From Alphaproteobacteria bacterium (lineage in GTDB: Bacteria; Pseudomonadota; Alphaproteobacteria; Micavibrionales; Micavibrionaceae): 64,000 bases of DNA. Shown piece by piece: positions 45,595-58,739 of this stretch. Below the pieces are notes generated by a model, which was not told the DNA's origin, ran no database searches, and saw nothing but the letters and a program-made list of their open reading frames with translations. The position numbers were made by a program, and so were the translations under genes. The DNA lies in NCBI GenBank assembly GCA_030427385.1, contig JAUHWR010000001.1, positions 1,116,001 through 1,180,000 of the forward strand, read 5' to 3'. Numbering within the stretch: the stretch's first letter is position 1; each line of letters begins with the position of its first letter.

Positions 45595-45671
45595 GGCGGA
45601 GTAGCTCAGCCGGTTAGAGCAGCGGAATCATAATCCGCGTGTCGGGGGTTCGAGTCCCTCCTCCGCTACCA
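45595..45671 (+). tRNA. Elongator tRNA-Met (anticodon CAT)
   Basis: The 77-nt sequence folds with acceptor GGCGGAG/CTCCGCT (the first pair is G-U) and an encoded ACCA end. The D arm is GCTC/GAGC. The anticodon stem GCGGA/TCCGC has loop ATCATAA, and the T arm is GGGGG-TTCGAGT-CCCTC. The first pair and the absence of the three G-C pairs in the anticodon stem argue against the initiator. A lysidine-type tRNA-Ile with CAT is less likely. The accessory cluster starts directly downstream. Confidence 0.93.
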
Positions 45672-45718: not shown

Positions 45719-46654
45719 TTAAATATCATTGTGATAACAAACCTGTCTTACCATGGATTGGCATGCCATTCTTGTCTGTATATTTTGATCATGAACATCA
45801 TGCCCTCCTCCATTAATCATTATTTGTTGAGAAATTGGATACACAAACCAAATATTTGTATTAGGCGCAACCCATTGATCATCAGATCCAAAGTAAAAAG
45901 TTGTAGGGATAGATTGAAATTCTGGATTATCATGAGATAAATTGAACAGCCATCGCTTTGGAAGTTTATTCATTACCTCATTATAAAGTTGTTCGGCTAA
46001 GTATGTTTTACTTAACTCCTCTCTCCATTCTAAATCACTCTTACTCTCATAAAAGCTTGTTTCAGTCCCTTTATATCCAAATATCTTTGCCTTTTCGAAT
46101 TCCCCCTTTAAAAACAAGCTCTCTTCTTGGGCAAACATACGTTGAAAAGCTTCTTTTTTTGCACCTCTTATATTGTTAGAATTATAATATTCCAGATAAG
46201 CTCTCGCAGTTTCTGGCGAACTATCAAGAAAAACATCCCAATCTTCTTCTTCTCCTAAAAAAGGCGCGTAAGCAGAAAAACCAAGGCACTTATCCGGATT
46301 TAAACACCCATATGCCGTCATAAAAATAGCGCCGAAAGACCAACTGAAAATTTGCCATTGATCGATGTTTAGATGGCAGCGAAGCTTTTCTATATCATGA
46401 ACGTGTGAGAAAACTGTATTTGGCGCATTTTCAAAATCAAACGCTTTAGAGCAACCAAAACCACGTTGATGAAAAGTTATAATATGATGATCATCTTGTG
46501 AAAACGCCGTTAAACTTTCTAAATCGAATGTATGTCCCGACCCGCCATGTATTAATAAAAGCGGGACTCCATTTGGGTTGCCATAAGAGCACCAATATAT
46601 GGATTGATGTCCCTCCACGGGCAAATAGCCTTCTTTAAAGTTTAATAATGACAT
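45719..46654 (-). CDS. Alpha/beta hydrolase, proline-iminopeptidase-like (S33)
   Basis: The 311-residue protein has the oxyanion-hole segment LLLIHGGSGHTFD (HGGSG instead of the usual HGGPG) and FHQRGFGCSKA. The nucleophile elbow is SWSFGA, the catalytic Asp is in FGSDDQWV and the His in GGGHDVHD. It lacks a signal peptide. The S33 family cleaves N-terminal Pro or hydrolyses small amides and esters. Divergence from the methyltransferase gene and a Fur-like box at its start suggest it serves the same pathway, perhaps product release or degradation. Substrate unknown. Confidence 0.8.
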   Translation of the reverse strand: MSLLNFKEGYLPVEGHQSIYWCSYGNPNGVPLLLIHGGSGHTFDLESLTAFSQDDHHIITFHQRGFGCSKAFDFENAPNTVFSHVHDIEKLRCHLNIDQWQIFSWSFGAIFMTAYGCLNPDKCLGFSAYAPFLGEEEDWDVFLDSSPETARAYLEYYNSNNIRGAKKEAFQRMFAQEESLFLKGEFEKAKIFGYKGTETSFYESKSDLEWREELSKTYLAEQLYNEVMNKLPKRWLFNLSHDNPEFQSIPTTFYFGSDDQWVAPNTNIWFVYPISQQIMINGGGHDVHDQNIQTRMACQSMVRQVCYHNDI

Positions 46655-46662
46655 TCATTCTC
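46644..46662. promoter_or_regulatory. Fur-box-like sequence between the hydrolase and methyltransferase genes
   Basis: AATAATGACATTCATTCTC matches the 19-bp Fur consensus GATAATGATAATCATTATC at 15 positions by my count. It overlaps the hydrolase start codon and lies about 50 bp before the divergent methyltransferase start, so binding could affect both. No experimental support. Confidence 0.55.
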
Positions 46663-46711
46663 ACCTTTGATATGTCAGTATTAAGTATCTTTATAGGAAA
46701 AAGTAAAGAAA

Positions 46712-47491
46712 ATGATTTCTAATAATAAGAAAATCGCAGAACAATATACTCTTCTAAGCCAGCATTATGATGATTGGTTCTCTTTGCAATGGCCCGAACC
46801 AGCTTACAGGCAAGGAAAAGCAATAGAAAAAATCTTTAAAAACTTTCAATTACCTAACAATGCCCGCGTACTGGATTTAACATGCGGAATTGGAACACAG
46901 GCAATAGGATTAGCTTTACAAGGTTATGAAGTCGTCGCTTTAGATATAAGCGATGGACAATTAAGAAAAGCAAAAGAAGAAGCTAATAAAATAGATCCCA
47001 ACCTAAAAATTGAATGGATTTTGGGTGATGCAACAGAGCCTAAAAAATATGTTAATGGTACATTTGATGCCGTTATTTCCTTTGGCAATTCATTACCATT
47101 ATTAGGAAATGAGGAGGCAATCATTAGTTGCATGAGACAATCACAAACAATTTTAAAATCAAATGGCTTGCTCCTTGTCTCTATGCGTGACCATAGCGAA
47201 TTACGCAAAACTCGACCCTATCTTATGGGGAGCGGAAAATTAAATAATAAAGATCGACAAGGAATTTGGATTGAAACAGGTGAATGGCTGCAAGGGCAAA
47301 ATCGTTATATATCCCATATTATTTTTATAATGAGTCAACCAGAGCATAAAGAATATCATTATCCATTCCCGCCATTAGCTGCTTTAACAGCGGAAGAAAC
47401 ATTAAACCTGATTAAACAAGCCAATTTTGACACCTCAACAATGCAACGAGTCGAAGACATCAGCTTCCCAGTGTTTATTGGAAAAAAATAA
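46712..47491 (+). CDS. Class I SAM-dependent methyltransferase (copy 1)
   Basis: The 259-residue protein has motif I VLDLTCGIGTQAIGLAL, the acidic motif II in VVALDISDGQL, motif post-II WILGDATEP and DAVISFGNSLPLL. Proteins with the CGIGTQAIGLA pattern resemble glycine/sarcosine-type N-methyltransferases, so an amine acceptor is plausible. It opens a plus-strand run with the PLP enzyme (1 bp between stop and start) and a second, related methyltransferase. Substrate unknown. Confidence 0.82.
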   Translation: MISNNKKIAEQYTLLSQHYDDWFSLQWPEPAYRQGKAIEKIFKNFQLPNNARVLDLTCGIGTQAIGLALQGYEVVALDISDGQLRKAKEEANKIDPNLKIEWILGDATEPKKYVNGTFDAVISFGNSLPLLGNEEAIISCMRQSQTILKSNGLLLVSMRDHSELRKTRPYLMGSGKLNNKDRQGIWIETGEWLQGQNRYISHIIFIMSQPEHKEYHYPFPPLAALTAEETLNLIKQANFDTSTMQRVEDISFPVFIGKK

Positions 47492-47492
47492 T

Positions 47493-48605
47493 ATGAAACT
47501 TAGTACGCCCAGTCGATCAAGTGAAATAATTATGAGCGATCTTAAAGATTTACGAAATCGTGCCCTTAAAGTTTGGGATTATAATCCCGATCTTGCCATT
47601 AGCGCCAATCTAACGAATAAAACTGTCCGAATTTTAGAAGATAAATTAACAAAAATGGAAAGTGGGAACTTTACCGTTGCTGTTGAAACTGGACAGGCTG
47701 CCATTTCAACAGTGCTCTTTTCTTTTTTGAAATCTGGAGACCATGTTCTTATTCCTGATAATGTCTATGGTCCGGTTAAGCTTCTCGCTGAAAACCAATT
47801 AGCTGCATTTAACATAGATTACACCTATTATGATCCCTTAGATTTAAAAGATTTAGAATACAAAATTACCATTAATACTCGGATGATTTATTTAGAAAGT
47901 CCCGGATCATTAACTTTTGAAGTACAAGATATTGCTAAGATTGCCCAACTTGCAAAACAAAAAAACCTTATTACTGTAGTTGATAATACCTATGCAACAC
48001 CCCTCAATAGTAATCCTCTGGAATATGGAATAGATATATGCCTTCATTCTTTATCTAAACATATTACCGGAAATACCGGGGTGTTCGGAGGAAGCTTGAC
48101 TGTTAAAGAACGAGAGCATTATAAAAAAATAAAAAATATGGCTGTATTTTTAGGGCATTGGCTATCCCCTGATGATGCATTATTAACATTGAATGCATTA
48201 CCCCACCTCAAAGGCCGACTTGAGCATCAACATGACACAGCTTGTAAAGTTATTAATTTTTTAAATACACATCCATCAATTGAAAAAATATACGCTCCTT
48301 TTCTAGCCACTTCGGCTACATATTCTACATGGAATAAATTTTATAAAAAAGGATGCGGGTTATTTTCAGTATCATTAAAACCACATTATAAAGAGCAAGA
48401 TTTAGAAGGTTTTTTTAACCATCTTAAAGTTTTTAAAATTAGTTATGGATGGGGTGGTGATAATCCTCTCATCGTTCCAGGAAGAACCACACGTAGCCTT
48501 TCAAAATTTCCACCTCATTTAATTCGTATTTATTGTGGTATGGCAAAACCTAACATTTTAATTGATGACCTTGAGCAGGCTCTTTCTGGCTTGATGAAAA
48601 CATGA
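47493..48605 (+). CDS. Cys/Met-metabolism PLP enzyme (cystathionine beta-lyase/gamma-synthase family)
   Basis: The 370-residue protein belongs to the transsulfuration fold-type I family. It has VETGQAAISTVLFSFLKSGDHVL, an Asp in VVDNTYATP that binds the pyridine nitrogen, and the PLP Lys in LHSLSKHITGNTG. The closest general pattern is MetC-like. Family members do beta- or gamma-elimination or replacement on Cys, cystathionine or activated homoserine. The ATG at 47493 directly follows the methyltransferase stop; the upstream part of the longer frame overlaps that gene. Tight packing argues for a shared pathway. Confidence 0.85.
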   Translation: MKLSTPSRSSEIIMSDLKDLRNRALKVWDYNPDLAISANLTNKTVRILEDKLTKMESGNFTVAVETGQAAISTVLFSFLKSGDHVLIPDNVYGPVKLLAENQLAAFNIDYTYYDPLDLKDLEYKITINTRMIYLESPGSLTFEVQDIAKIAQLAKQKNLITVVDNTYATPLNSNPLEYGIDICLHSLSKHITGNTGVFGGSLTVKEREHYKKIKNMAVFLGHWLSPDDALLTLNALPHLKGRLEHQHDTACKVINFLNTHPSIEKIYAPFLATSATYSTWNKFYKKGCGLFSVSLKPHYKEQDLEGFFNHLKVFKISYGWGGDNPLIVPGRTTRSLSKFPPHLIRIYCGMAKPNILIDDLEQALSGLMKT

Positions 48606-49393
48606 AAAAAACAATAAAATATGATCCCGTTGCTATAGCAACTTTATATGACGATATAGCAGCTATCTATGCTGATTATTATGAGGATTACAATGAAGCC
48701 ATTCGAAAGCAAGGCGCTGATCTAGCGAAGGTTATACAAACGCAAGGTATATACAATAACGCTAAAATTCTTGATTGTTCATGTGGAATAGGTACGCAAG
48801 CAATAGGCTTAGCTTTGGAAGGCTTTAATGTTTCAGGATGTGATATTAGTCCTGGTTCAATAAAAAAAGCCGAAGAAAACGCAAAATCTAAGTTTGTAGA
48901 TATTCCGTTCAAAACAGTCGATATGCGTTTTTTATCAAAAATATATAATGAGCGTTTTAGCGTTGTACTTTCATGTGGCAATAGTATCGCGCATCTTCTT
49001 ACCGATGAAGATTTAAAATTTTTCTTTGAAAGCGTCAAGAAAACTATTGAACCCGGCGGTATATTTTTGGTTGCGTTAACAGACCATGAGAAAAATATAC
49101 GAGAAGAAGGGGTTTTCTACGACCCTCATGTTAAAGAAGCAGACGATTTTAGAACTGTTAACTTTCAACTCTGGAAATGGATTGTGAAAGGTCTTGTTTA
49201 CATTTGTGATGATTACACTGTCCTAGACTATGGAAAAAATCAAAAGATTAAAAAAGTTTCGGCCACCTTTAGAATATGGCATAAAAAAGTTCTATTTTCA
49301 AAAGCAGAAGAATATGGTTTTTCAAATTGCCAATGGCTCTTACCACAAGAAACAGGGCACCATAATCCAATTTTTATTGCCCAAGCAATATAG
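48602..49393 (+). CDS. Class I SAM-dependent methyltransferase (copy 2)
   Basis: The 263-residue protein shares with copy 1 the motif CGIGTQAIGLALEG, preceded by ILDCS, an acidic loop CDISPGSIKKA and VVLSCGNSIAHLL. The ATGA overlap with the PLP enzyme gene shows translational coupling. The C-terminal part differs from copy 1, which suggests a different acceptor or a different methylation step. The gene converges on the asparagine-synthase gene, with 2 bp between stops. Confidence 0.82.
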   Translation: MKKTIKYDPVAIATLYDDIAAIYADYYEDYNEAIRKQGADLAKVIQTQGIYNNAKILDCSCGIGTQAIGLALEGFNVSGCDISPGSIKKAEENAKSKFVDIPFKTVDMRFLSKIYNERFSVVLSCGNSIAHLLTDEDLKFFFESVKKTIEPGGIFLVALTDHEKNIREEGVFYDPHVKEADDFRTVNFQLWKWIVKGLVYICDDYTVLDYGKNQKIKKVSATFRIWHKKVLFSKAEEYGFSNCQWLLPQETGHHNPIFIAQAI

Positions 49394-49395
49394 AA

Positions 49396-51183
49396 TTATC
49401 TCAGATAATCTGCTTGTCGTTCTATAATTTCATTCAAAATGTATAAACGATAGAATATTGAGCATTGAGTTGAAGTTCCATTTTGCCAAAGTTCTTTCAA
49501 ATACGACATATTTATGAAGCCTAGTTGATTTAAACCGCTTTCTTCTTCAAAAATATGCTCAATCAGTTTTCCAAAAGCTTCAGTTTTATAAATAGTATTA
49601 GAAATAGGAAAGCCCGCCTTTTTACGATTTATAATTTTTTCAGGAACAACCCCTTTTAGAGCTTCTTTAAAAATCCATTTTTCACATCCGTTAAAATGCT
49701 TATATTTAGAAGGGACCTGAAAAGCCATTTCAACTATGTCCAGTTCCGCAAGTGGACTTCTAACTTCCACGCTATGTGCCATAGACGCTTGGTCCATTTG
49801 TTTAAATTCGCAAACCGGATAAATACCATGAAAATTCATGAGACATGCAAGCTGTGCTGGATCACTGCAATCATTTTTATAAAGATCAATGATTGGTTGC
49901 ATTGATGCACAGAAGTTTTGTTCTGGCGTTAAATCAGGCATTAACCGTTCCAAATCAATATTATTCAACCCATTAAATTTTTTAAAATAAGATGACACTA
50001 AATTATCAACTGGCGTATCTTTTAAAAGATGACCATGCCCGTAACCATCAAAAATTTCGTCGGGCCCATTACCACTAAATGCCACGCGATAATTTTTATC
50101 TGATATAACACTAAATAAATTATATAGACTTGCTGCTTCAGGAGCACCATGTGGCTCAGAACAAACTTCACTCCATTTTTTTAGATTTTTACAATAATCC
50201 TCAGGAGTGAGAGCAATTTCTGTGTGCTTTGTCCTCATGACGTTGGCTACATAGCGCGCATACTTAAACTCATTATAAGAAATATCATTAGAGTTATCAG
50301 GATCTACTAAACCAATTGAATAAGTTGATAGTGTTAATCCCTTTTTCTTAGCAAAGGCAACCACAGTAGTAGAATCAATCCCCCCACTCAATAAATGTGC
50401 ATATGGAACTTCAAGGTTAAATAAACGGTAGCAACTAGCTTCAACCGCTTCATATAACGACTGCTTTAAATTCTTTTGGTCACTAATACTTAGTTCTGCG
50501 TACTGCCTGACAGGCACTGTATAATAACGGTCAATATTAAAATTATTATTTCTATAAGACCATGTTATTGAGCACCCACTCTCTAATTTTTTAATTTGCT
50601 TAATATGTGTATCTCTACCAAAGATGAACATAATACCTATCATTTGAGATATTGCATTTACGTCCCACTCCCTCTCGACCTCTGGTATTTGGATTAAGGC
50701 TTCTATATCAGAGGCGAAAAAAAGCCCCCCCTGCACTTTCATGTAATAGAGTGGCTTTTGACCAGTAGGATCGACAGCAATAAACGCGACCTGATCTTTT
50801 TCGTTATAAATACAAAATGAAAACATCCCTTTTATATATTTTAAACAATCTTGCCCCCATTTTAGATACGCCGCTAGTACAGTTTCAGTATCACATGATG
50901 TTTTAAAGTTGTAAGAATCTAAATATTGGCGTAACTCTAAATGATTATAGACTTCACCGTTAAACACAATAATATGAGCACTTTGCTTATTATAGAATGG
51001 CATGTCTGCTTCAGTATTTAGATGATCTGTAATGCGAAGCCTTGCCGCTCCTAAATATGCGCCCTCTAACGCATAAACTTTCTGAAAATCAGGCCCACGA
51101 GAACGCATAACATTAAGCATACCGTTCACGACACATGAAGTATTTCCATCTCTATTTCCAATAAATCCAGCTATTCCACACAT
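49396..51183 (-). CDS. asnB: Asparagine synthase (glutamine-hydrolysing) homologue
   Basis: The 595-residue protein has an N-terminal glutaminase domain with the nucleophile Cys2 (MCGIAGFIGN, then FNGEVYNHLELR). It has an ATP-pyrophosphatase synthetase domain with the PP-loop LLSGGIDSTTVVAFA and AFSGNGPDEIFDGYG. The last motif has Asn-Gly-Pro where AsnB normally has Asp-Gly-Gly/Ala, so substrate preference may differ. In secondary metabolism such enzymes form amides. It is divergent from methyltransferase 3, with a Fur-like box between. A housekeeping asparagine synthetase is the alternative. Confidence 0.85.
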   Translation of the reverse strand: MCGIAGFIGNRDGNTSCVVNGMLNVMRSRGPDFQKVYALEGAYLGAARLRITDHLNTEADMPFYNKQSAHIIVFNGEVYNHLELRQYLDSYNFKTSCDTETVLAAYLKWGQDCLKYIKGMFSFCIYNEKDQVAFIAVDPTGQKPLYYMKVQGGLFFASDIEALIQIPEVEREWDVNAISQMIGIMFIFGRDTHIKQIKKLESGCSITWSYRNNNFNIDRYYTVPVRQYAELSISDQKNLKQSLYEAVEASCYRLFNLEVPYAHLLSGGIDSTTVVAFAKKKGLTLSTYSIGLVDPDNSNDISYNEFKYARYVANVMRTKHTEIALTPEDYCKNLKKWSEVCSEPHGAPEAASLYNLFSVISDKNYRVAFSGNGPDEIFDGYGHGHLLKDTPVDNLVSSYFKKFNGLNNIDLERLMPDLTPEQNFCASMQPIIDLYKNDCSDPAQLACLMNFHGIYPVCEFKQMDQASMAHSVEVRSPLAELDIVEMAFQVPSKYKHFNGCEKWIFKEALKGVVPEKIINRKKAGFPISNTIYKTEAFGKLIEHIFEEESGLNQLGFINMSYLKELWQNGTSTQCSIFYRLYILNEIIERQADYLR

Positions 51184-51219
51184 TTAATATTTTACTTGTA
51201 ATGAAGGTTTGGAGACCAT

Positions 51220-51238
51220 ATAAATGAAAATCATTCTC
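51220..51238. promoter_or_regulatory. Fur-box-like palindrome between asnB homologue and methyltransferase 3
   Basis: TGAAAATCATTCTCA (51225-51239) is nearly the 7-1-7 Fur repeat TGATAATNATTATCA, with two symmetric mismatches. In the 19-bp form it matches about 14 positions. It is 37 bp from the asnB start and 28 bp from the methyltransferase start, where a repressor would block both promoters. Confidence 0.65.
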
Positions 51239-51266
51239 AATAACAAGACTTTTTTAGGAATAAATA

Positions 51267-51950
51267 ATGGCGGCAGAAAAATTAATACAAGAATGGTGGT
51301 TAGAGCCTAACCAAGGCGATGCATCATTGGAAGAAGATCACGTGGATTTTTGGCAAGATGTCCTTAACAATGTCATTGACCAATCTTTAACACATAAAAA
51401 TGTTCTTGATTTTGGTTGTAATCGTGGTGGTCTTCTAAAAATGTTGCACGAAACTTTTTCTCTCAACAAAGGCGTTGGTGTTGATATCGCTCAAGAATCA
51501 ATAAATGTGGCTAATTCACGCATTCAGAATGAACCAATTAAATACTTGGCTCTTACTGATCTATCACAATTTCAAGAAGAGTTTGATATAGCGATAAGTA
51601 CAGCTGTTATTTACCTCATACAAGATATAAAAAATCACGCTCAACAAATTTATGGAGCTCTAAAACCTAATGGCGTTTATTATGTGACCCACCCTGATTA
51701 CACTCAATCTGCTGGCGGAAAAGTTTTAATGGAAGAAATTAAAAAGTTTTCCGCAACTGAAGTTGCTACAAATACATTAGATGATATTGCCAATGCTTTT
51801 GAAGAAGTAGGCTTTCAAGTCTCTATTAAAAAAATGCAACCATCTCGTTATTTCTCGCACACAAAGCATTCGACTTGGTATCGTTCAATTTACGACTGCA
51901 TTCATCACGAATACAACGAACGTTATGTCTTTAAACTTGTAAAATTATAA
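51267..51950 (+). CDS. Class I SAM-dependent methyltransferase (copy 3)
   Basis: The 227-residue protein has motif I VLDFGCNRGGLLKML, acidic motif GVGVDIAQESI and YGALKPNGVYYVTHPDY. It is not closely similar to copies 1 and 2 and looks like a general small-molecule methyltransferase. The fusion gene starts 19 bp after its stop, so the two are cotranscribed behind the Fur-like box. Acceptor unknown. Confidence 0.8.
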   Translation: MAAEKLIQEWWLEPNQGDASLEEDHVDFWQDVLNNVIDQSLTHKNVLDFGCNRGGLLKMLHETFSLNKGVGVDIAQESINVANSRIQNEPIKYLALTDLSQFQEEFDIAISTAVIYLIQDIKNHAQQIYGALKPNGVYYVTHPDYTQSAGGKVLMEEIKKFSATEVATNTLDDIANAFEEVGFQVSIKKMQPSRYFSHTKHSTWYRSIYDCIHHEYNERYVFKLVKL

Positions 51951-51969
51951 AATTTTGAAAAATAATAAT

Positions 51970-53781
51970 ATGTATAATTACAGTGATATAGAGTTCATTA
52001 AAAATGAAATTTTTAAGTTTGGACATCAGATTATCTCTACAAAAGATTTGTCACCTGAAAACGATAATTTTCATCAAGCTCGCTACAAACTATACGATCT
52101 TGCAAAAATAGAAGTTACAGCAGACATTCTTGAGAACATAAGAAATGATCAAAAGCTTCAAAACCTAATTAAGCAAATCTTCCCAATCTCATGCGAGGCC
52201 GGAATTCACGAAGAGTGTTTTATAGCTGAGCAACTTTTAAAAAAAGACAATCTGACATTCGGACATATTTTTAGAAATTATCATGGTGAAATATACGAAG
52301 CTTTGATGAACGATGAATTAAAGTTTTTAGAATCACAAGAAAATATTTCAATGTCAGATGAGCATATTACTTATATTGGCGGAGGCGCATTACCAATTCC
52401 TGCAATGTTATTGGCACAAAAAACAGGATGCAAAATTACGATTATTGATCCGCATACACCATCATGTATTGTATCACAAAATTTAATAAAGCGCATCGGT
52501 TTGGATCACTTGATAACGATCGTTGCGGCATCAGGTCAATCCTATGACTATACTAATACTTCACTGGTTTTTACGGCAAATTGGATACCAGACAAAGCCG
52601 GGATTTTTTCAAGATTAACTGAATTCAACAATCTTAAGTATGTTATCTTTCGTTCTGCGGCTGAGGATAGCCTTAGCTTTATCATCAACGATTTTGTAAA
52701 TATATGCGATGTTTGTGATAAAGGCCTTAATTTAGTTTACAAGACAAAAAAACGTGAAGATATCTCTCTTATTTCATTAATTTTGAATAAACAAATTGAA
52801 GAAGAACCTTGTGTGCATAAGGCCCCTTGTCCAAAATTTAGAACGCCACGAATTATTAATGAAATGACGGATTTAATAGGGAATACGCCTATGCTTCGTC
52901 TCGATCCGAATAAAACGGGTTTGAAGCATATTGATCTCTACGCCAAATTGGAACACTTAAATCCTTTTGGATCAATCAAAGATCGTACAGCATGGGGTAT
53001 GCTCAAACCGCATATAAATGATTTAAAAGAGAAAAAGAAATCTATTCTGGAGTTATCAAGTGGTAATGCTGCGAGAGGTCTTCAGGCGATTGCCTCAATA
53101 AATGGCTTACAACTTGAAACAGTTAGCAATCGAATTCGTGTTCATGAAATGCGTGACATGTTACAGTTGCAAGGAGCTAAGGTAACACCTATGGCAGAAG
53201 ATTTGGATTCTTCTGATGCTTATGCTGCTTTAAAGGCCGTAGATATTAGAGCTGAAAAAGATAAAGATCACTTTTTTTATACAGATCAATATCGTAATCC
53301 AAATAATGATGGGACTCATTATTCTCATACAGGTCAAGAGATTATTGAAGATTTGGGATCAGTTGATTATTTTATTGGATCTGTTGGGACAGCTGGCTCA
53401 ACTATGGGCATATCAAGACGATTAAAAGAGCAAAACTTTGACCTTGATATAACAGGTGTTATTTCAGAAAAAGATGATTATGTTCCCGGCTTGCGTCACA
53501 AAGATGAAATATTTGACATAGGACCTTTTAAAGAAAACTATTATTCGCGTTTAATCGATATTGACGTTCAAAATGCCATTGACGGTATTTTAGAGCTGAC
53601 ACGTGATTATGGTGTCATGGCAGGACCCTCTAGTGGGGCTACTTATGTCGCCGCAATTCGTCACCTCAGAGAGGTGGATAAGACCTTATCAAGTAAGAAA
53701 ACAGCAGTCTTTGTCGTTTGCGATAGGGCAGAAATGTATTTTAGCTGGATAAAAGTTAGACGTCCTGATTTGTTTCAATAA
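51970..53781 (+). CDS. Nicotianamine-synthase-like / cysteine-synthase-like fusion protein
   Basis: The 603-residue protein (from the ATG at 51970; a TTG at 51955 is in frame) has two parts. Residues 1 to about 285 have a helical N-terminus and a Rossmann-like SAM-binding segment TYIGGGALPIPAMLLAQKTG followed by IIDPHTPSCIVSQNLI. This pattern matches nicotianamine synthase-like enzymes (NAS, CntL). Residues 295-603 are a PLP fold-type II cysteine-synthase/cystathionine beta-synthase domain: LIGNTPMLRL, PLP Lys337 in FGSIKDRTAWG, the loop LSSGNAARGL, and SVGTAGSTMG binding the cofactor phosphate. NAS-type enzymes transfer aminobutyrate from SAM. Cysteine-synthase-type enzymes such as SbnA make C-N bonds onto a serine-derived acrylate. 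The combination suggests an aminopolycarboxylate product. The domain calls are from visible motifs; the product is inferred. Confidence 0.75.
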   Translation: MYNYSDIEFIKNEIFKFGHQIISTKDLSPENDNFHQARYKLYDLAKIEVTADILENIRNDQKLQNLIKQIFPISCEAGIHEECFIAEQLLKKDNLTFGHIFRNYHGEIYEALMNDELKFLESQENISMSDEHITYIGGGALPIPAMLLAQKTGCKITIIDPHTPSCIVSQNLIKRIGLDHLITIVAASGQSYDYTNTSLVFTANWIPDKAGIFSRLTEFNNLKYVIFRSAAEDSLSFIINDFVNICDVCDKGLNLVYKTKKREDISLISLILNKQIEEEPCVHKAPCPKFRTPRIINEMTDLIGNTPMLRLDPNKTGLKHIDLYAKLEHLNPFGSIKDRTAWGMLKPHINDLKEKKKSILELSSGNAARGLQAIASINGLQLETVSNRIRVHEMRDMLQLQGAKVTPMAEDLDSSDAYAALKAVDIRAEKDKDHFFYTDQYRNPNNDGTHYSHTGQEIIEDLGSVDYFIGSVGTAGSTMGISRRLKEQNFDLDITGVISEKDDYVPGLRHKDEIFDIGPFKENYYSRLIDIDVQNAIDGILELTRDYGVMAGPSSGATYVAAIRHLREVDKTLSSKKTAVFVVCDRAEMYFSWIKVRRPDLFQ

Positions 53782-53943
53782 TCCTTTACAACTATTCGTG
53801 AATTGATTAGCTCTTATTCTTCTTAAGAGACATCAGTCTCAATTATATTTTCATATTTACATAAAATGCCATTTTAAATTTTATTCTTTTTAATCATATT
53901 AGAAGAAGATCATATATTAACTATTATTAACGGGGGTGTGTAT

Positions 53944-56190
53944 ATGGGTATTCAATATAAAGGTATTAATTTGTCCGGGTTGGAATTAGGGAGCGGGACT
54001 ACGTTATGGCAGGACTATACGAGACCGGGGCAGGATGATTTTTCCTATTGGACCAATCAAGTTGGTGCAAATATTATTCGTCTACCTTTCACGTGGGATC
54101 GATTACAATATGAATTAAATGGAGAACTGGAACAAAGTTATCTAAATTTAATAAAACAATCTGTAGCTTGGGCCGAAGAAAATGGTAGTACCATAATTTT
54201 AGACCTTCATAATTTTGGATTTTATAACGATGCGACCATTGGTTCGCACGATTTACCTATCACTGCATTTTCAGATCTATGGAAAAAATTGGGACAAGAG
54301 TTTCAAGGAAATGATAATGTCTGGTTCAATTTAATGAATGAGCCTTATACATTTGAAGCTAAAGAATGGGCAGATATTTCACAAGAGGTTGTAAATAATA
54401 TAAGGGATGCAGGTATAGATAATAAAATCCTTCTATCAGGTACGGCATGGTCGGGAGCGCAGTCATGGGAATATAGCGGAAACGCGGATGCATATAAGGA
54501 TTTTGTAGATCCGCTGAATAATTTTGCCTTTGATGTGCATCAATATATAGACGAATGGTCAACTGGAAATAATGAAACTTTCCATGAAAACGTCGGAATA
54601 CCACGATTAGAAAAAATTACGGATTGGGCAAACGACCACGATTTTAAGCTATTTTTAGGGGAAATCGGAATTACCGACCAAGCAGATTACCAGCAGGAAG
54701 TCATTAAAATTCTGGATTACATGGAGACACATTCAGAGGTTTGGCTAGGTTGGACGTTATGGGGCGCCGGTCCATGGTGGCCAAATGATTATCATTTTAA
54801 TATTAATCCACAACAAGACGGTCAGCATGATGCTGCTATCGATGCCATGATGGACTATTTTATAATTAATTTGAATAATTTAGATGAAACACAATTGTCC
54901 CCTGCCCCTGTAATCTTTGATGAAACGGCTTTTACTTCATATAATTACGAACAAGATGTCAGCGGTGTTGTCTCGACCAAAAATGACGGCATTGAGGTGA
55001 CTTTAAGCGGGAATATTTGGAAGAAGATGGCGTTTGAATATGTGGTCACCACAGACACCATAATCTCATTTGAATATAAATCCACCATACAAGCGGAGCT
55101 TCAGGGGTTTGTATTAGAAACGGACAATAATTACAAAACCGGGTCAAATGTTATTCAATTATATGGATATGACACAACCGGTTATTTTGATCGAACACAT
55201 AACTATAGTGGAACCGGTGGATGGCAGACTTTTAATATCCGCGCATCCGATTACATAACAGGCAATGTCAATGCTTTGGCATTTATTAATGATCATGATG
55301 GCGGGGCCCGTAATGGCAATAGCACTTATCGAAATTTTACTATTTATGAAGACGTACCCGTTATAGATGACAACACAATCCTTATAAATACGCCGATGAA
55401 GGATATGATTAATTTATCCAATCTTTCTCAGAGTGTATATGATTACGGTCAGCATCAAAATGGGGGGCTTAGTTTCAACAGCGAAGGTGATGCACTTACT
55501 ATCAGCGGGAACACATGGCAAAAGCTAGGATATACTTATAATGTGACCGAGCACACCATGGTTAAGTTTTCATTCCGCAGTGATGACATGGGGGAGATTC
55601 AGGGCATTGGCTTTGAAAATGATAATCGACACAGCACCGGCCCTGAGAAGAGCTTTCAATTGACGGGCTCCCAGACAAACCCACATTTTTACAATGATTT
55701 AAGCTATACAGAGTTTGGAAACTGGCAGACTTTTACGATCCGGCTTGGAGATTACCAATTGGGGAAAATTACCCATTTGGCATTCGTTAATGACGATGAT
55801 GCTGATAGCTCCGGCATCAGCCACTATCGTGATATCACACTTTATGAAGATGACGGATTATATGTTGAGGGTGTCTATATAGGAACGGATAGTAACGATG
55901 TTTTTGATATTGATGCTTTGCCGGGATACGGTAATGCGTATGAGATTAATGGCTTTGAGATTGGAAAAGATAAGATTGATGTATCAGATTTGTTAGAATC
56001 TTATGATCCGCTTACTGATGTCATCAGCGATTTCTTACGAATAACCAATGAAGGTGTAAATAGCTTGGTTGAAATTGATGCGGATGGACAAGCCAATGGG
56101 TCAAACTTCACGCAGGTTGCCACAATAACAAATATTACAAATTTGACTGATGAACTCGCTTTGGAGGCATCAGGAACAATTATAGCTTAG
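53944..56190 (+). CDS. GH5-family glycoside hydrolase with type I secretion C-terminus
   Basis: The 748-residue protein starts MGIQYKGINLSGLE (a GTG two codons earlier is possible) and has no signal peptide. Residues 1-310 form a GH5 (cellulase-type) domain with the acid/base Glu133 in WFNLMNEPY and the nucleophile Glu240 in FLGEIGI. Two similar beta-rich units of about 140 residues follow and look like carbohydrate-binding modules. The C-terminal 110 residues (GTDSNDVFDI, INGFEIGKDKIDVSDLL) resemble type I secretion targets of the VCA0849/serralysin kind. It is likely an extracellular beta-glucanase or mannanase. No transporter genes are adjacent. Confidence 0.88.
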   Translation: MGIQYKGINLSGLELGSGTTLWQDYTRPGQDDFSYWTNQVGANIIRLPFTWDRLQYELNGELEQSYLNLIKQSVAWAEENGSTIILDLHNFGFYNDATIGSHDLPITAFSDLWKKLGQEFQGNDNVWFNLMNEPYTFEAKEWADISQEVVNNIRDAGIDNKILLSGTAWSGAQSWEYSGNADAYKDFVDPLNNFAFDVHQYIDEWSTGNNETFHENVGIPRLEKITDWANDHDFKLFLGEIGITDQADYQQEVIKILDYMETHSEVWLGWTLWGAGPWWPNDYHFNINPQQDGQHDAAIDAMMDYFIINLNNLDETQLSPAPVIFDETAFTSYNYEQDVSGVVSTKNDGIEVTLSGNIWKKMAFEYVVTTDTIISFEYKSTIQAELQGFVLETDNNYKTGSNVIQLYGYDTTGYFDRTHNYSGTGGWQTFNIRASDYITGNVNALAFINDHDGGARNGNSTYRNFTIYEDVPVIDDNTILINTPMKDMINLSNLSQSVYDYGQHQNGGLSFNSEGDALTISGNTWQKLGYTYNVTEHTMVKFSFRSDDMGEIQGIGFENDNRHSTGPEKSFQLTGSQTNPHFYNDLSYTEFGNWQTFTIRLGDYQLGKITHLAFVNDDDADSSGISHYRDITLYEDDGLYVEGVYIGTDSNDVFDIDALPGYGNAYEINGFEIGKDKIDVSDLLESYDPLTDVISDFLRITNEGVNSLVEIDADGQANGSNFTQVATITNITNLTDELALEASGTIIA
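54943..55851 (+). repeat. Two divergent protein-level repeats in the GH5 gene
   Basis: Residues 334-470 and 496-636 align by eye through L.SGN.W.K, GxxxENDN-like, WQTFxIR..DY and LAF.ND followed by YR..T.YED. The unit boundaries are approximately 54943-55353 and 55429-55851. They are probably binding modules. Confidence 0.75.
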
Positions 56191-56201: not shown

Positions 56202-58739
56202 TTACTCACATCGGTTTTTGCCCAAGCGTTTTTTACATTTATCACCGCTTGGGCAATCCGTATCCTGTGCACAGACACATTCACGGTTAGCGCCATTACC
56301 TTGGCATTTGCCAGTTCGACATTCCTGATTTTTACTACAAGATTGCCCCACATCTTTATTGCGGTTTGATAGGCATCTATTTTTGCTGGCGCGATTATTA
56401 CAGTATTGTGTCGCAGAACAATCGCTATCACGATTACACACGCATTCTCGATCACTACCGCTGCCTTGGCACTTACCTGAGCGGCATTCTGCATTTTTAT
56501 CACATGTTTCACCAACATTAGACGTCCCATTCGCTAGGCATCTGTTTTGTCCCAATCGGTTATTACAGAATTGTCCATTGGCGCAATCACTATCATTGTT
56601 ACAAACGCATTCCCTATTATCGCCGCTACCCTGACACTTATTGGTTTGGCATTCTTTATTCTTAAGGCAAGAGTCACCCACATTCAGCGTGCCATCCCGC
56701 AGACATCTATTCGCGCCAAGACGATTATTGCAAAATTCACCTGATGCACAATCATCATCTATGTTACAAACACATTGCTTGTTGCCATTACTTCCCTGAC
56801 ATTTGTTTGACATGCATTCCGCATTTTGATCGCATGATGCTCCCACTAATTTTTGGGCTGACTCAAATGTTCTACGAGGAATTTGTTGCCCTTCATTACG
56901 CTTTGCAACCGAAGCTTCCCACATTTGCAAAAATTGTTCAGCGCCGTCATTTTTCAATTGGTTAAGATATTCTGACCTTAAGCCCACCGCTTCTAACTCA
57001 TTGTGCCATTTCTTCATCATGCCGATATGTGAAAGACCTTCGGTAATATGTCCGTCATATAAATTAAAATCATCTTCGGTTTCGCCCACAATTCTAAAGT
57101 TACACTTCGCGGTTGTGCGGGAATATACGGCTTGGGTAATAGTTGCGAAATCAAGAGAATACCCAACGCTAAGTCCCTTTTCCAGAAGCCATGCCAACAT
57201 TTTACCGGTTTCAGTGCTGGAATTGGCACAATCATTTGATATGCCGGAATCAAAACCATCAACGACTGCCCCTTCATGGTCTTCCAAAGAATCCGTTGGC
57301 CCCATTCGTAAGCCAAAGAACCCGCCTGTCTCTGTTATATAATCAAGTTCATGACTATCCAGATCATATTCATGGCGGCGATAGCTTCCTTTGTCCGTAA
57401 GGCGCTCATTTGGCTTATTATGTAGTGCATTTAAAGGATAATTATTAAATTGACGTGAGATTTCACGCATATGGGTTCTGCCTTTGCTTGAAACATGATC
57501 AATGTTTACAATCATGCCATTAAGCATGGCTTCTCTGACAACACGCTCCCCTTCGTGAGATAACCCCAAATTATTACGCTCGATATCTGTATTGCTGTTA
57601 TAACTTGTCCCCCCGGTATTGGCAGGCGCAATCGTCATCGCTTCGGGTGTGAAGGAAGGCGGCAAAGGATATATTTCAAATCCATTAAACAAACGCGATC
57701 CATAAAGCAATATATAGCTACTTAGATTGGCTTCACTAATGTCACTGAGTTTATAGCTACATGTATCTGTAATTTTTGCCCCTTTGAATGCATCATTGCC
57801 GCAGCGCTTTTCATGTCCGCAATATTTATACCCGTCTGCTCTATAGAGGGGGAACTCACCGACATGATCATCATAATAAAAACAACCGGAAATGGCCTGT
57901 GACATCCGTAATGCTTTGCCCGATGAATTTCCGCGCGGCAAATAAACATCCGCCCCGGTCAGGCGGCTATTAATTTTATGTGACAGATAGAAAGTACGCA
58001 CGCCCTCATCAATGTAAGTATTTAAACGATCGACAGGATCGAACGTGCTCGCTTCGGAGCCAAAAGAATACTCGGATTCAATTCCCAAAATAATTGCCAA
58101 TTTATCATCATTAATAATATCTCTGGCTTCTGCCGGTGTGTAGGCAATTTGCATATCATCGCTATTCGCCGCGACCCAGTCCTTCATGGCGTCTAATTGC
58201 CTCTTCATGGATGGAAAACTATCCCCCTTGGTACAGCCATAACCTTCATGTCCATCGCCGCCATCCTTATCATTAACGTAATAAAGCTGTTCACACATTG
58301 ATTCATTTTCAACAGCAAAAGCCACCATGATGCGCGCACGCGAATCCTGATATTTTTCTTCTGTTGGTTTATGCGCTTCTTTGATCCACTCCGTTGAGTA
58401 TCTTAAATGTGAAAAGCTCTTTCTAAGCGGCCCGTCATAGGAAGAATGGACGCCGATATCTTTCCCTAGAAAAAGCCCTCCTAAGCTGCCTTTTGCTTCA
58501 CCGTGGTCACAAATACCTGCAACAGAACAACCGCCGCATTGTGCCGTGTATCCGTTTTCCATTACACCATTTTGATAATTACCGGCCGCACCCGTAAAAG
58601 CATAATTCCCCCCAAATGCCATGCCTTGTGTGGGATGTTCGTGTGTTAGTACATATCCCTGAATTTCTTGTGCTTTACTTGTGTGAGCAAGGGTTATGCC
58701 GAGTAATAGTAAAAGAAAAAAGAAGGGTTTTGGCAACAT
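56202..58739 (-). CDS. Secreted M19-dipeptidase-like protein with four cysteine-rich repeats
   Basis: The 845-residue protein has a signal peptide (FFFLLLLLGITLAHTSKA) and a large domain resembling renal dipeptidase (M19) and the amidohydrolase fold. Visible are THEHPTQG (His33, His35), AIILGIESEYSFG, VRTFYLSHKINSRL, GMIVNIDHVSSKG (His415) and NALHNKPN (His440). These correspond to the metal-binding and catalytic segments of M19. From residue 632 four tandem 55-residue units each carry eight Cys. It is probably an extracellular or surface metallohydrolase. The domain is much longer than ordinary M19 enzymes, and activity is not certain. Confidence 0.8.
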   Translation of the reverse strand: MLPKPFFFLLLLLGITLAHTSKAQEIQGYVLTHEHPTQGMAFGGNYAFTGAAGNYQNGVMENGYTAQCGGCSVAGICDHGEAKGSLGGLFLGKDIGVHSSYDGPLRKSFSHLRYSTEWIKEAHKPTEEKYQDSRARIMVAFAVENESMCEQLYYVNDKDGGDGHEGYGCTKGDSFPSMKRQLDAMKDWVAANSDDMQIAYTPAEARDIINDDKLAIILGIESEYSFGSEASTFDPVDRLNTYIDEGVRTFYLSHKINSRLTGADVYLPRGNSSGKALRMSQAISGCFYYDDHVGEFPLYRADGYKYCGHEKRCGNDAFKGAKITDTCSYKLSDISEANLSSYILLYGSRLFNGFEIYPLPPSFTPEAMTIAPANTGGTSYNSNTDIERNNLGLSHEGERVVREAMLNGMIVNIDHVSSKGRTHMREISRQFNNYPLNALHNKPNERLTDKGSYRRHEYDLDSHELDYITETGGFFGLRMGPTDSLEDHEGAVVDGFDSGISNDCANSSTETGKMLAWLLEKGLSVGYSLDFATITQAVYSRTTAKCNFRIVGETEDDFNLYDGHITEGLSHIGMMKKWHNELEAVGLRSEYLNQLKNDGAEQFLQMWEASVAKRNEGQQIPRRTFESAQKLVGASCDQNAECMSNKCQGSNGNKQCVCNIDDDCASGEFCNNRLGANRCLRDGTLNVGDSCLKNKECQTNKCQGSGDNRECVCNNDSDCANGQFCNNRLGQNRCLANGTSNVGETCDKNAECRSGKCQGSGSDRECVCNRDSDCSATQYCNNRASKNRCLSNRNKDVGQSCSKNQECRTGKCQGNGANRECVCAQDTDCPSGDKCKKRLGKNRCE
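56205..56846 (-). repeat. Four tandem 165-bp repeats encoding eight-cysteine modules
   Basis: Units lie at about 56682-56846, 56517-56681, 56352-56516 and 56205-56351 (the last is shortened). Each encodes the pattern VGxSCxxNxECxxxKCQG, then ECVCNxDxDC, FCNNRxxxNRC. The spacing of the eight Cys is constant, as in Dickkopf N-terminal or EGF-like modules. Confidence 0.9.

Follow-up and report, generated by a model that had tools for sequence, protein, structure and literature searches.

A nicotianamine-synthase-like domain and a complete PLP-dependent domain joined in one polypeptide of a Micavibrio-like bacterium

In the window, i.e. the whole stretch of 64,000 nucleotides analysed here, which originates from an alphaproteobacterium of the family Micavibrionaceae, a single gene encodes a nicotianamine synthase (NAS)-like domain followed by a PLP-dependent domain of the beta family (PALP). 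The fusion of these two complete domains is real. NAS enzymes, which are used to make nicotianamine and staphylopine, and PLP enzymes forming C–N bonds with O-phosphoserine, which are used to make staphyloferrin B precursors and aspergillomarasmine, represent two separate known routes that lead to natural metal chelators or to precursors of these; one protein joining both routes would be a ready two-step catalyst, if our reading holds. According to this reading, to which we give slightly less than an even chance, the fusion is a bifunctional enzyme that synthesises a nicotianamine/marasmin-like aminopolycarboxylate, its PLP chemistry replacing an opine dehydrogenase. The gene and its domains are:

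51970..53781, + strand: NAS-PALP fusion gene, an open frame of 603 aa
51970..52800, + strand: NAS-like domain, N-terminal, about residues 1-277, with E82 and Y109
52846..53778, + strand: PLP beta-family (PALP) domain, C-terminal, residues 293-603, with K337, the SSGNA loop and PGLR (R509)

As the host assembly consists of only 3 contigs and the frame is unbroken through both domains, a sequencing chimera is unlikely. An alternative TTG start of the ORF at position 51955 is possible. Residues 136-149 of the fusion are IGGGALPIPAMLLA. The domain order, the coordinates and the motifs reported in the first-pass annotation were correct, as judged by the ORF and the domain profiles. A model of the full-length protein, based on a small joint alignment (A5) that appeared sound by eye, was poor (pLDDT 62.9) and is uninformative on the arrangement of the domains.

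Taken alone, the N-terminal half matched the Pfam NAS family PF03059 weakly (E 0.0056; 16.5 bits, the cut-off of 27.1 bits not being reached), and its match to the CntL model was weak, too (E 0.0027). When scored against a profile made from 13 stand-alone NAS-like proteins, from which the fusion was excluded, this half reached 124 bits; the best of 200 shuffles scored 2.8 bits. The AF2 model of the N-terminal half (pLDDT 91.5, pTM 0.88) shows the NAS fold, with the helical domain at its N-terminus, and is distinct from ordinary methyltransferases. In a Foldseek search with this model, the first 12 chains were all MtNAS or CntL. VIA-align gave a Z-score of 27.8 for MtNAS (E81Q entry 3fpj; 258 residues, 2.5 Å) and of 21.4-23.5 for CntL, compared to 17.4 for the best non-NAS chain; sequence identity to MtNAS and CntL in the structural alignments was 14-16%. 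Residues E82 and Y109 are invariant in all 14 rows of the alignment and pair with E81 and Y107 of MtNAS, as deduced via the alignment of a stand-alone relative to MtNAS. The equivalent residues of AtNAS1, E77 and Y106, are essential (PMC10248798).

Thus, the proposal of the first-pass annotation that this half is NAS-like was upheld by the fold, the kept catalytic residues and the profile of the relatives. A superposition on an ordinary methyltransferase, which had been named beforehand as the outcome contradicting this proposal, is ruled out by the Foldseek chains and the Z-scores: MtNAS scores about 10 Z and CntL 4 to 6 Z above the best methyltransferase. The N-terminal half is a divergent NAS-like domain which, as a single sequence, lies outside the curated membership of PF03059. 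With MtNAS (thermonicotianamine) and CntL (staphylopine) it has in common the fold of the whole domain, the equivalents of E82 and Y109, and the SAM loop GxGxLP; it differs from both in its low identity, its score below the Pfam cut-off when taken alone, the attached PLP domain, and an island lacking a CntM-type gene. NAS-type SAM chemistry of this half is likely.

Stand-alone proteins matching the N-terminal half occur in eight other genomes among 58 related ones and comprise 272-317 aa. The one at locus L010 matches MtNAS (E 1.3e-14), CntL (E 2.5e-10) and PF03059 (100.2 bits). In the host's order, stand-alone NAS-like genes lie at L009:5047-5895, L010:5006-5854, L013:5221-6123 and L015:5304-6122; in the ORF lists around these four genes, no biosynthetic neighbours were noticed by eye.

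A different use of SAM has to be considered for this half: it could act as a SAM cyclase, delivering azetidine-2-carboxylate (or another SAM-derived amino acid) to the PLP half or to the island, with the prolyl-aminopeptidase-like hydrolase described below handling the proline analogue. Ring closure of the last unit by plant NAS yields azetidine-2-carboxylate (PMC11794875), and a prolyl-aminopeptidase-like gene does lie within the island. However, AzeJ and VioH, which are dedicated azetidine-2-carboxylate synthases, are similar to ordinary class I methyltransferases (PMC11794875), whereas the N-terminal half possesses the full NAS fold; we regard a cyclase as quite improbable.

In the C-terminal half the PALP domain (PF00291) is complete: residues 300-585 cover profile positions 2-295 of 295 (E 6.5e-50, 170.6 bits versus a cut-off of 35). 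The PLP core is retained, i.e. the lysine (K337, within NPFGSIKDR), the glycine loop and PGxR. The scores for specific families are low. The curated CysK and CysM models gave 140 and 159 bits (cut-offs 351 and 394), the SbnA model TIGR03945 152 bits (cut-off 350), and the CBS cut-off was likewise far from reached; the scores are below half of the cysK, cysM and CBS thresholds. A housekeeping cysteine synthase is opposed by these family scores and by the phylogenetic tree described below. Hence, of the claim that this half is a complete cysteine-synthase-like core with K337, the complete PLP core stood, and a close relationship to cysteine synthases was opposed by the distance to the CysK, CysM, CBS and SbnA cut-offs and by the grouping with PALP-rhodanese proteins.

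In order to describe this grouping, we use a non-exhaustive subfamily profile scan of genome contigs, which was based on two peptide patterns of the PLP domain and confirmed 121 stretches, the best 80 being retained (the 80 best loci in the following); records near the host's own genome were possibly left out. At 79 of the 80 best loci, the ORF extends past the PLP domain (428-454 aa from the start of the match), the exception being L108, a plain PALP protein without extension. Pfam confirmed a rhodanese domain in L030, the one extended locus scanned, and at least 65 of the 79 extended relatives show the pattern of a rhodanese-type Cys loop (sum of the 15 commonest forms). The C-terminal half is 38-48% identical over the PLP domain to these 79 bacterial members. 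Among the 38 rows of a maximum-likelihood tree it stands beside the PALP-rhodanese proteins, set apart from four outgroup rows by a branch with 100/100 support. It sits on a long branch at a point where, according to a warning of the tree program, long branches meet; the position inside the subfamily is not fixed. The fusion shares the core motifs with PALP-rhodanese proteins (among which we count Fda4 by its published description), but has no rhodanese domain, as its ORF stops after the PLP domain, and carries the NAS domain in front. The genomic context differs as well: a decarboxylase-like type III PLP gene occurs at 79 of the 80 best loci and a cysteine-desulfurase-like gene at 63-71 of them, depending on the query (BLASTP; Pfam for examples), whereas both are absent from the island of the fusion.

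Two positions of the PLP half deserve attention. The PGxR motif is present in the fusion (R509) and in 79 of 79 relatives from the 80 best loci. R509 aligns with an arginine of 3dwg, which we take to be M. tuberculosis CysM, whose Arg220 binds O-phosphoserine. As an arginine is also found at this position in the CysM chains 2jc3 and 2bhs, R509 is not decisive for O-phosphoserine. Following SSGN, the fusion has an alanine, unlike all 79 relatives from the 80 best loci (74 threonine, 5 methionine), which is why the PLP half may have altered or lost its activity. This exchange, the long branch of the PLP half and the occurrence in a single genome would suit an accidental fusion of two neighbouring genes, with one or both halves decaying and without a coupled function. 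Such an accident is hard to reconcile with two complete domains, an intact frame and the kept catalytic Glu, Tyr and Lys, and we assign it a low probability.

A number of PLP enzymes indicate what the C-terminal half may do. Fungal Fda4 is a PLP enzyme of the cysteine synthase group with a rhodanese-like domain; it condenses O-phosphoserine with L-Ala and yields only traces with O-acetylserine. O-phosphoserine is also used by AMA synthase, which adds it to L-Asp, and by SbnA, which adds it to L-Glu (all according to PMC12751119). Given the chemistry of these three enzymes, an amine is the natural guess for the acceptor of the fusion's PLP half, and C–N bond formation is plausible by analogy; the chances that this half accepts amines are even. 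Fda4 itself may be kin to the bacterial PALP-rhodanese subfamily, judged solely by the shared architecture. SbnA has the PLP core in common with the fusion, and a similar chemistry is plausible, but the fusion scores less than half of the SbnA cut-off and an SbnB-like partner is missing from the seven island genes. To AMA synthase, which joins O-phosphoserine to the amine of an amino acid, the fusion can be likened only by plausible chemistry and from the description of that enzyme. The host content fits O-phosphoserine as donor: the 2.2 Mb genome contains two SerC (phosphoserine aminotransferase) genes above the cut-off (G000:C1:182127-183245 and 1872218-1873342), and neither a CysE above the curated cut-off nor another CysK-type match (E 0.001; also at 1e-9) was found in it. 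The absence of CysE is a soft result: in the same search, no more than 8 of 14 control genomes exceeded this cut-off, and three weak matches occur in the host.

The fusion gene is the last of seven genes of a low-GC island (45719-53781), which has a GC content of 34-36%, compared to 41-43% for the two portions of flanking DNA that were measured. Together, these genes resemble a pathway to a small molecule. GC3 is 0.24-0.28 in six island ORFs and 0.40 ± 0.06 in 50 others, one of which has 0.25; the value of 0.27 for MT1, which an overlap rule had excluded from the six, was computed separately. It is this composition by which the stretch is taken as a putative island. Besides the fusion gene, the following features belong to it or mark its edge:

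45595..45671, + strand: tRNA-Met, left edge of the low-GC island
45719..46654, - strand: alpha/beta hydrolase, prolyl-aminopeptidase-like (Pfam/family models)
46712..47491, + strand: MT1, class I methyltransferase, 33% identical to MT2 over 156 aa
47493..48605, + strand: MetC-like (Cys/Met metabolism) PLP enzyme, lyase and racemase types not being separable by sequence
48602..49393, + strand: MT2, class I methyltransferase; the best NCBIfam model is glycine/sarcosine N-methyltransferase, far below its cut-off
49396..51183, - strand: asparagine-synthase-like amidotransferase with Cys2 and SGGIDS
51267..51950, + strand: MT3, class I methyltransferase, 19 nt upstream of the fusion; best Pfam model PF13489

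The start of the MetC-like gene is uncertain (ATG 47493 in the sequence, TTG 47427 in the ORF list). Asn_synthase has two matches in the host genome, of which the amidotransferase is by far the stronger (203 versus 22 bits). A search for repeats listed no directly repeated copy of the tRNA-Met end. An empty integration site was not found among five relatives, in which the left flank gene was unmatched and the right flank gene was matched in four; in G030, the one region compared, there was no shared gene order. Adjoining the island, a GH5 cellulase-like gene with a GTG start and about 470 residues beyond the GH5 domain lies at 53938-56190 of the window, followed at 56202-58739 by a gene for a large, secreted-looking protein whose translation shows, by eye, a repeated cysteine-rich C-terminus.

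The MetC-like neighbour raises the question of sulfur metabolism. The PLP half might be a cysteine or cystathionine synthase, forming a transsulfuration pair with the MetC-like enzyme in a host lacking CysK; the NAS half would then be a separate SAM consumer, fused for reasons of stoichiometry. The lack of another CysK-type match in the host genome agrees with this, as do the pairs of PALP and MetC-like genes found about 200-600 bases apart in relatives (e.g. G051, G029 and G050), and the subfamily to which the PLP half belongs has rhodanese and cysteine-desulfurase-like neighbours, which also point to sulfur. The PLP half, however, is separate from those CysK/CBS-like genes (L006, the PALP protein of such a pair, belongs to the outgroup of the tree), stays under half of the cysK, cysM and CBS cut-offs, and lacks the rhodanese; moreover, two methyltransferase genes and the amidotransferase gene separate the fusion from the MetC-like gene. 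We consider a role in transsulfuration improbable.

We return to the bifunctional synthase, a two-site enzyme which we favour as the most parsimonious explanation. Domains, catalytic residues, gene neighbourhood and host content are observed; from these we infer the substrates, the sequence of the two steps, a product shared by both halves, the binding of metal and a biological role as follows. In the NAS half, bound SAM would donate its 3-amino-3-carboxypropyl (aminobutyrate) group to an amine, and methylthioadenosine would be set free. In the PLP half, aminoacrylate would be formed from a serine derivative, most likely O-phosphoserine, and would react with the amine of an amino acid; the resulting N-(2-amino-2-carboxyethyl) linkage is known from aspergillomarasmine and from the product of SbnA. 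Together, both halves would build a nicotianamine/marasmin-like aminopolycarboxylate by means of two different C–N bonds, the PLP step occupying the place of the opine dehydrogenase CntM in staphylopine-type pathways; the product might then be methylated by MT1-3 and amidated by the AsnB-like enzyme. Pairing a SAM-derived aminobutyrate transfer with a serine-derived transfer, as put forward in the first-pass annotation, is chemically sensible and fits the gene content of the host, the substrates being presumed; that both activities serve one product is a matter on which we are evenly divided.

The locus resembles opine-type zincophore clusters (CntK-CntL-CntM) in combining a NAS-type enzyme with methyltransferase neighbours, but the opine dehydrogenase (no CntM-type gene by Pfam) and a transporter are absent from the seven island genes. 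No Fur/Zur gene was found among the seven annotated genes either, which, like the missing transporter, counts against a secreted metallophore; a metallophore role is doubtful. Against the bifunctional synthase speak the single known example, the Ala in the substrate loop, the lack of an island transporter or metal regulator, the missing rhodanese, the soft result on CysE and the poor model of the full-length protein. The most complete version of this reading, namely one polypeptide of a Micavibrio-like bacterium that combines SAM-dependent aminocarboxypropyl transfer with PLP-dependent amine addition, substitutes PLP chemistry for the opine dehydrogenase, and is encoded on a horizontally acquired 8-kb island, so that a nicotianamine-marasmin hybrid chelator is made, N-methylated and amidated, is rather unlikely in all its parts; if true, it would constitute a new logic for the biosynthesis of metal-chelating aminopolycarboxylates.

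The NAS-PALP architecture was found in one of 142 genomes of the order, the window's own (among the matches listed, where a fusion would rank at the top). No second fusion was detected among the 58 related genomes, in a class sample of 385 genomes or in a phylum sample of 398 genomes; these four sets overlap and include the host genome. The PALP relatives contained none in the 80 best loci, and a NAS profile had zero matches (E up to 1) to all ORFs at these loci. Among 72,556 plasmid records 265 matched, none over more than 80% of the query, and the NAS half was unmatched. The viral contigs, searched with a query that detects close relatives only, yielded nothing encoding a relative of the fusion, and PADLOC reported nothing for it. 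In the literature searched (open-licence papers only), we found neither a NAS fused to a PLP enzyme nor a description of the type of product predicted for the cluster. The rarity of the fusion is supported, not proved, and the absence of a second one from everything covered is in line with the novelty claimed at first pass, the overall interpretation of which is partly supported.

Several related loci were seen in passing. A decarboxylase-like type III PLP gene and a PALP-rhodanese gene, often accompanied by a cysteine-desulfurase-like gene, form a conserved unit at L030:2407-7760, L033:2309-7311, L029:3530-7314 and L034:1825-7332; the hosts are Nocardia, Ktedonobacteria, Melainabacteria/Obscuribacterales and Micavibrio. 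At L030 and at L033 (Micavibrio) it adjoins a Fur-family gene, and L033 also has an ABC ATPase; the unit possibly represents an undescribed metal-related pathway. In Ktedonobacteria, L029:4996-7314 contains tandem PLP genes, one (318 aa) lacking and the other (438 aa) carrying the C-terminal extension; this may be an intermediate stage in the loss of a domain.

At L121, in another alphaproteobacterium, a relative of MT3 lies directly upstream of two tandem NAS genes (29% identity across 216 aa, the E-value of 4e-36 coming from a small comparison), and the stretch also carries two EamA transporters and a PEP-mutase-like gene. This neighbourhood counts in favour of the bifunctional synthase; what counts against it is that an MT3 relative was seen in just one of 19 genomes with NAS loci compared (12 + 7), some of which offered only about 1.5 kb of flank. 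Zincophore clusters can include extra PF13489 or PF13847 methyltransferases of unknown role and EamA exporters (PMC7438024), and PF13489 is the best match of MT3. Two adjacent NAS matches occur in three alphaproteobacterial genomes (L121:8661-11590, L130:301-2114, L131:467-2256), and these tandem loci are candidate metallophore clusters; at L130 the NAS matches adjoin, by eye, a membrane-protein gene.
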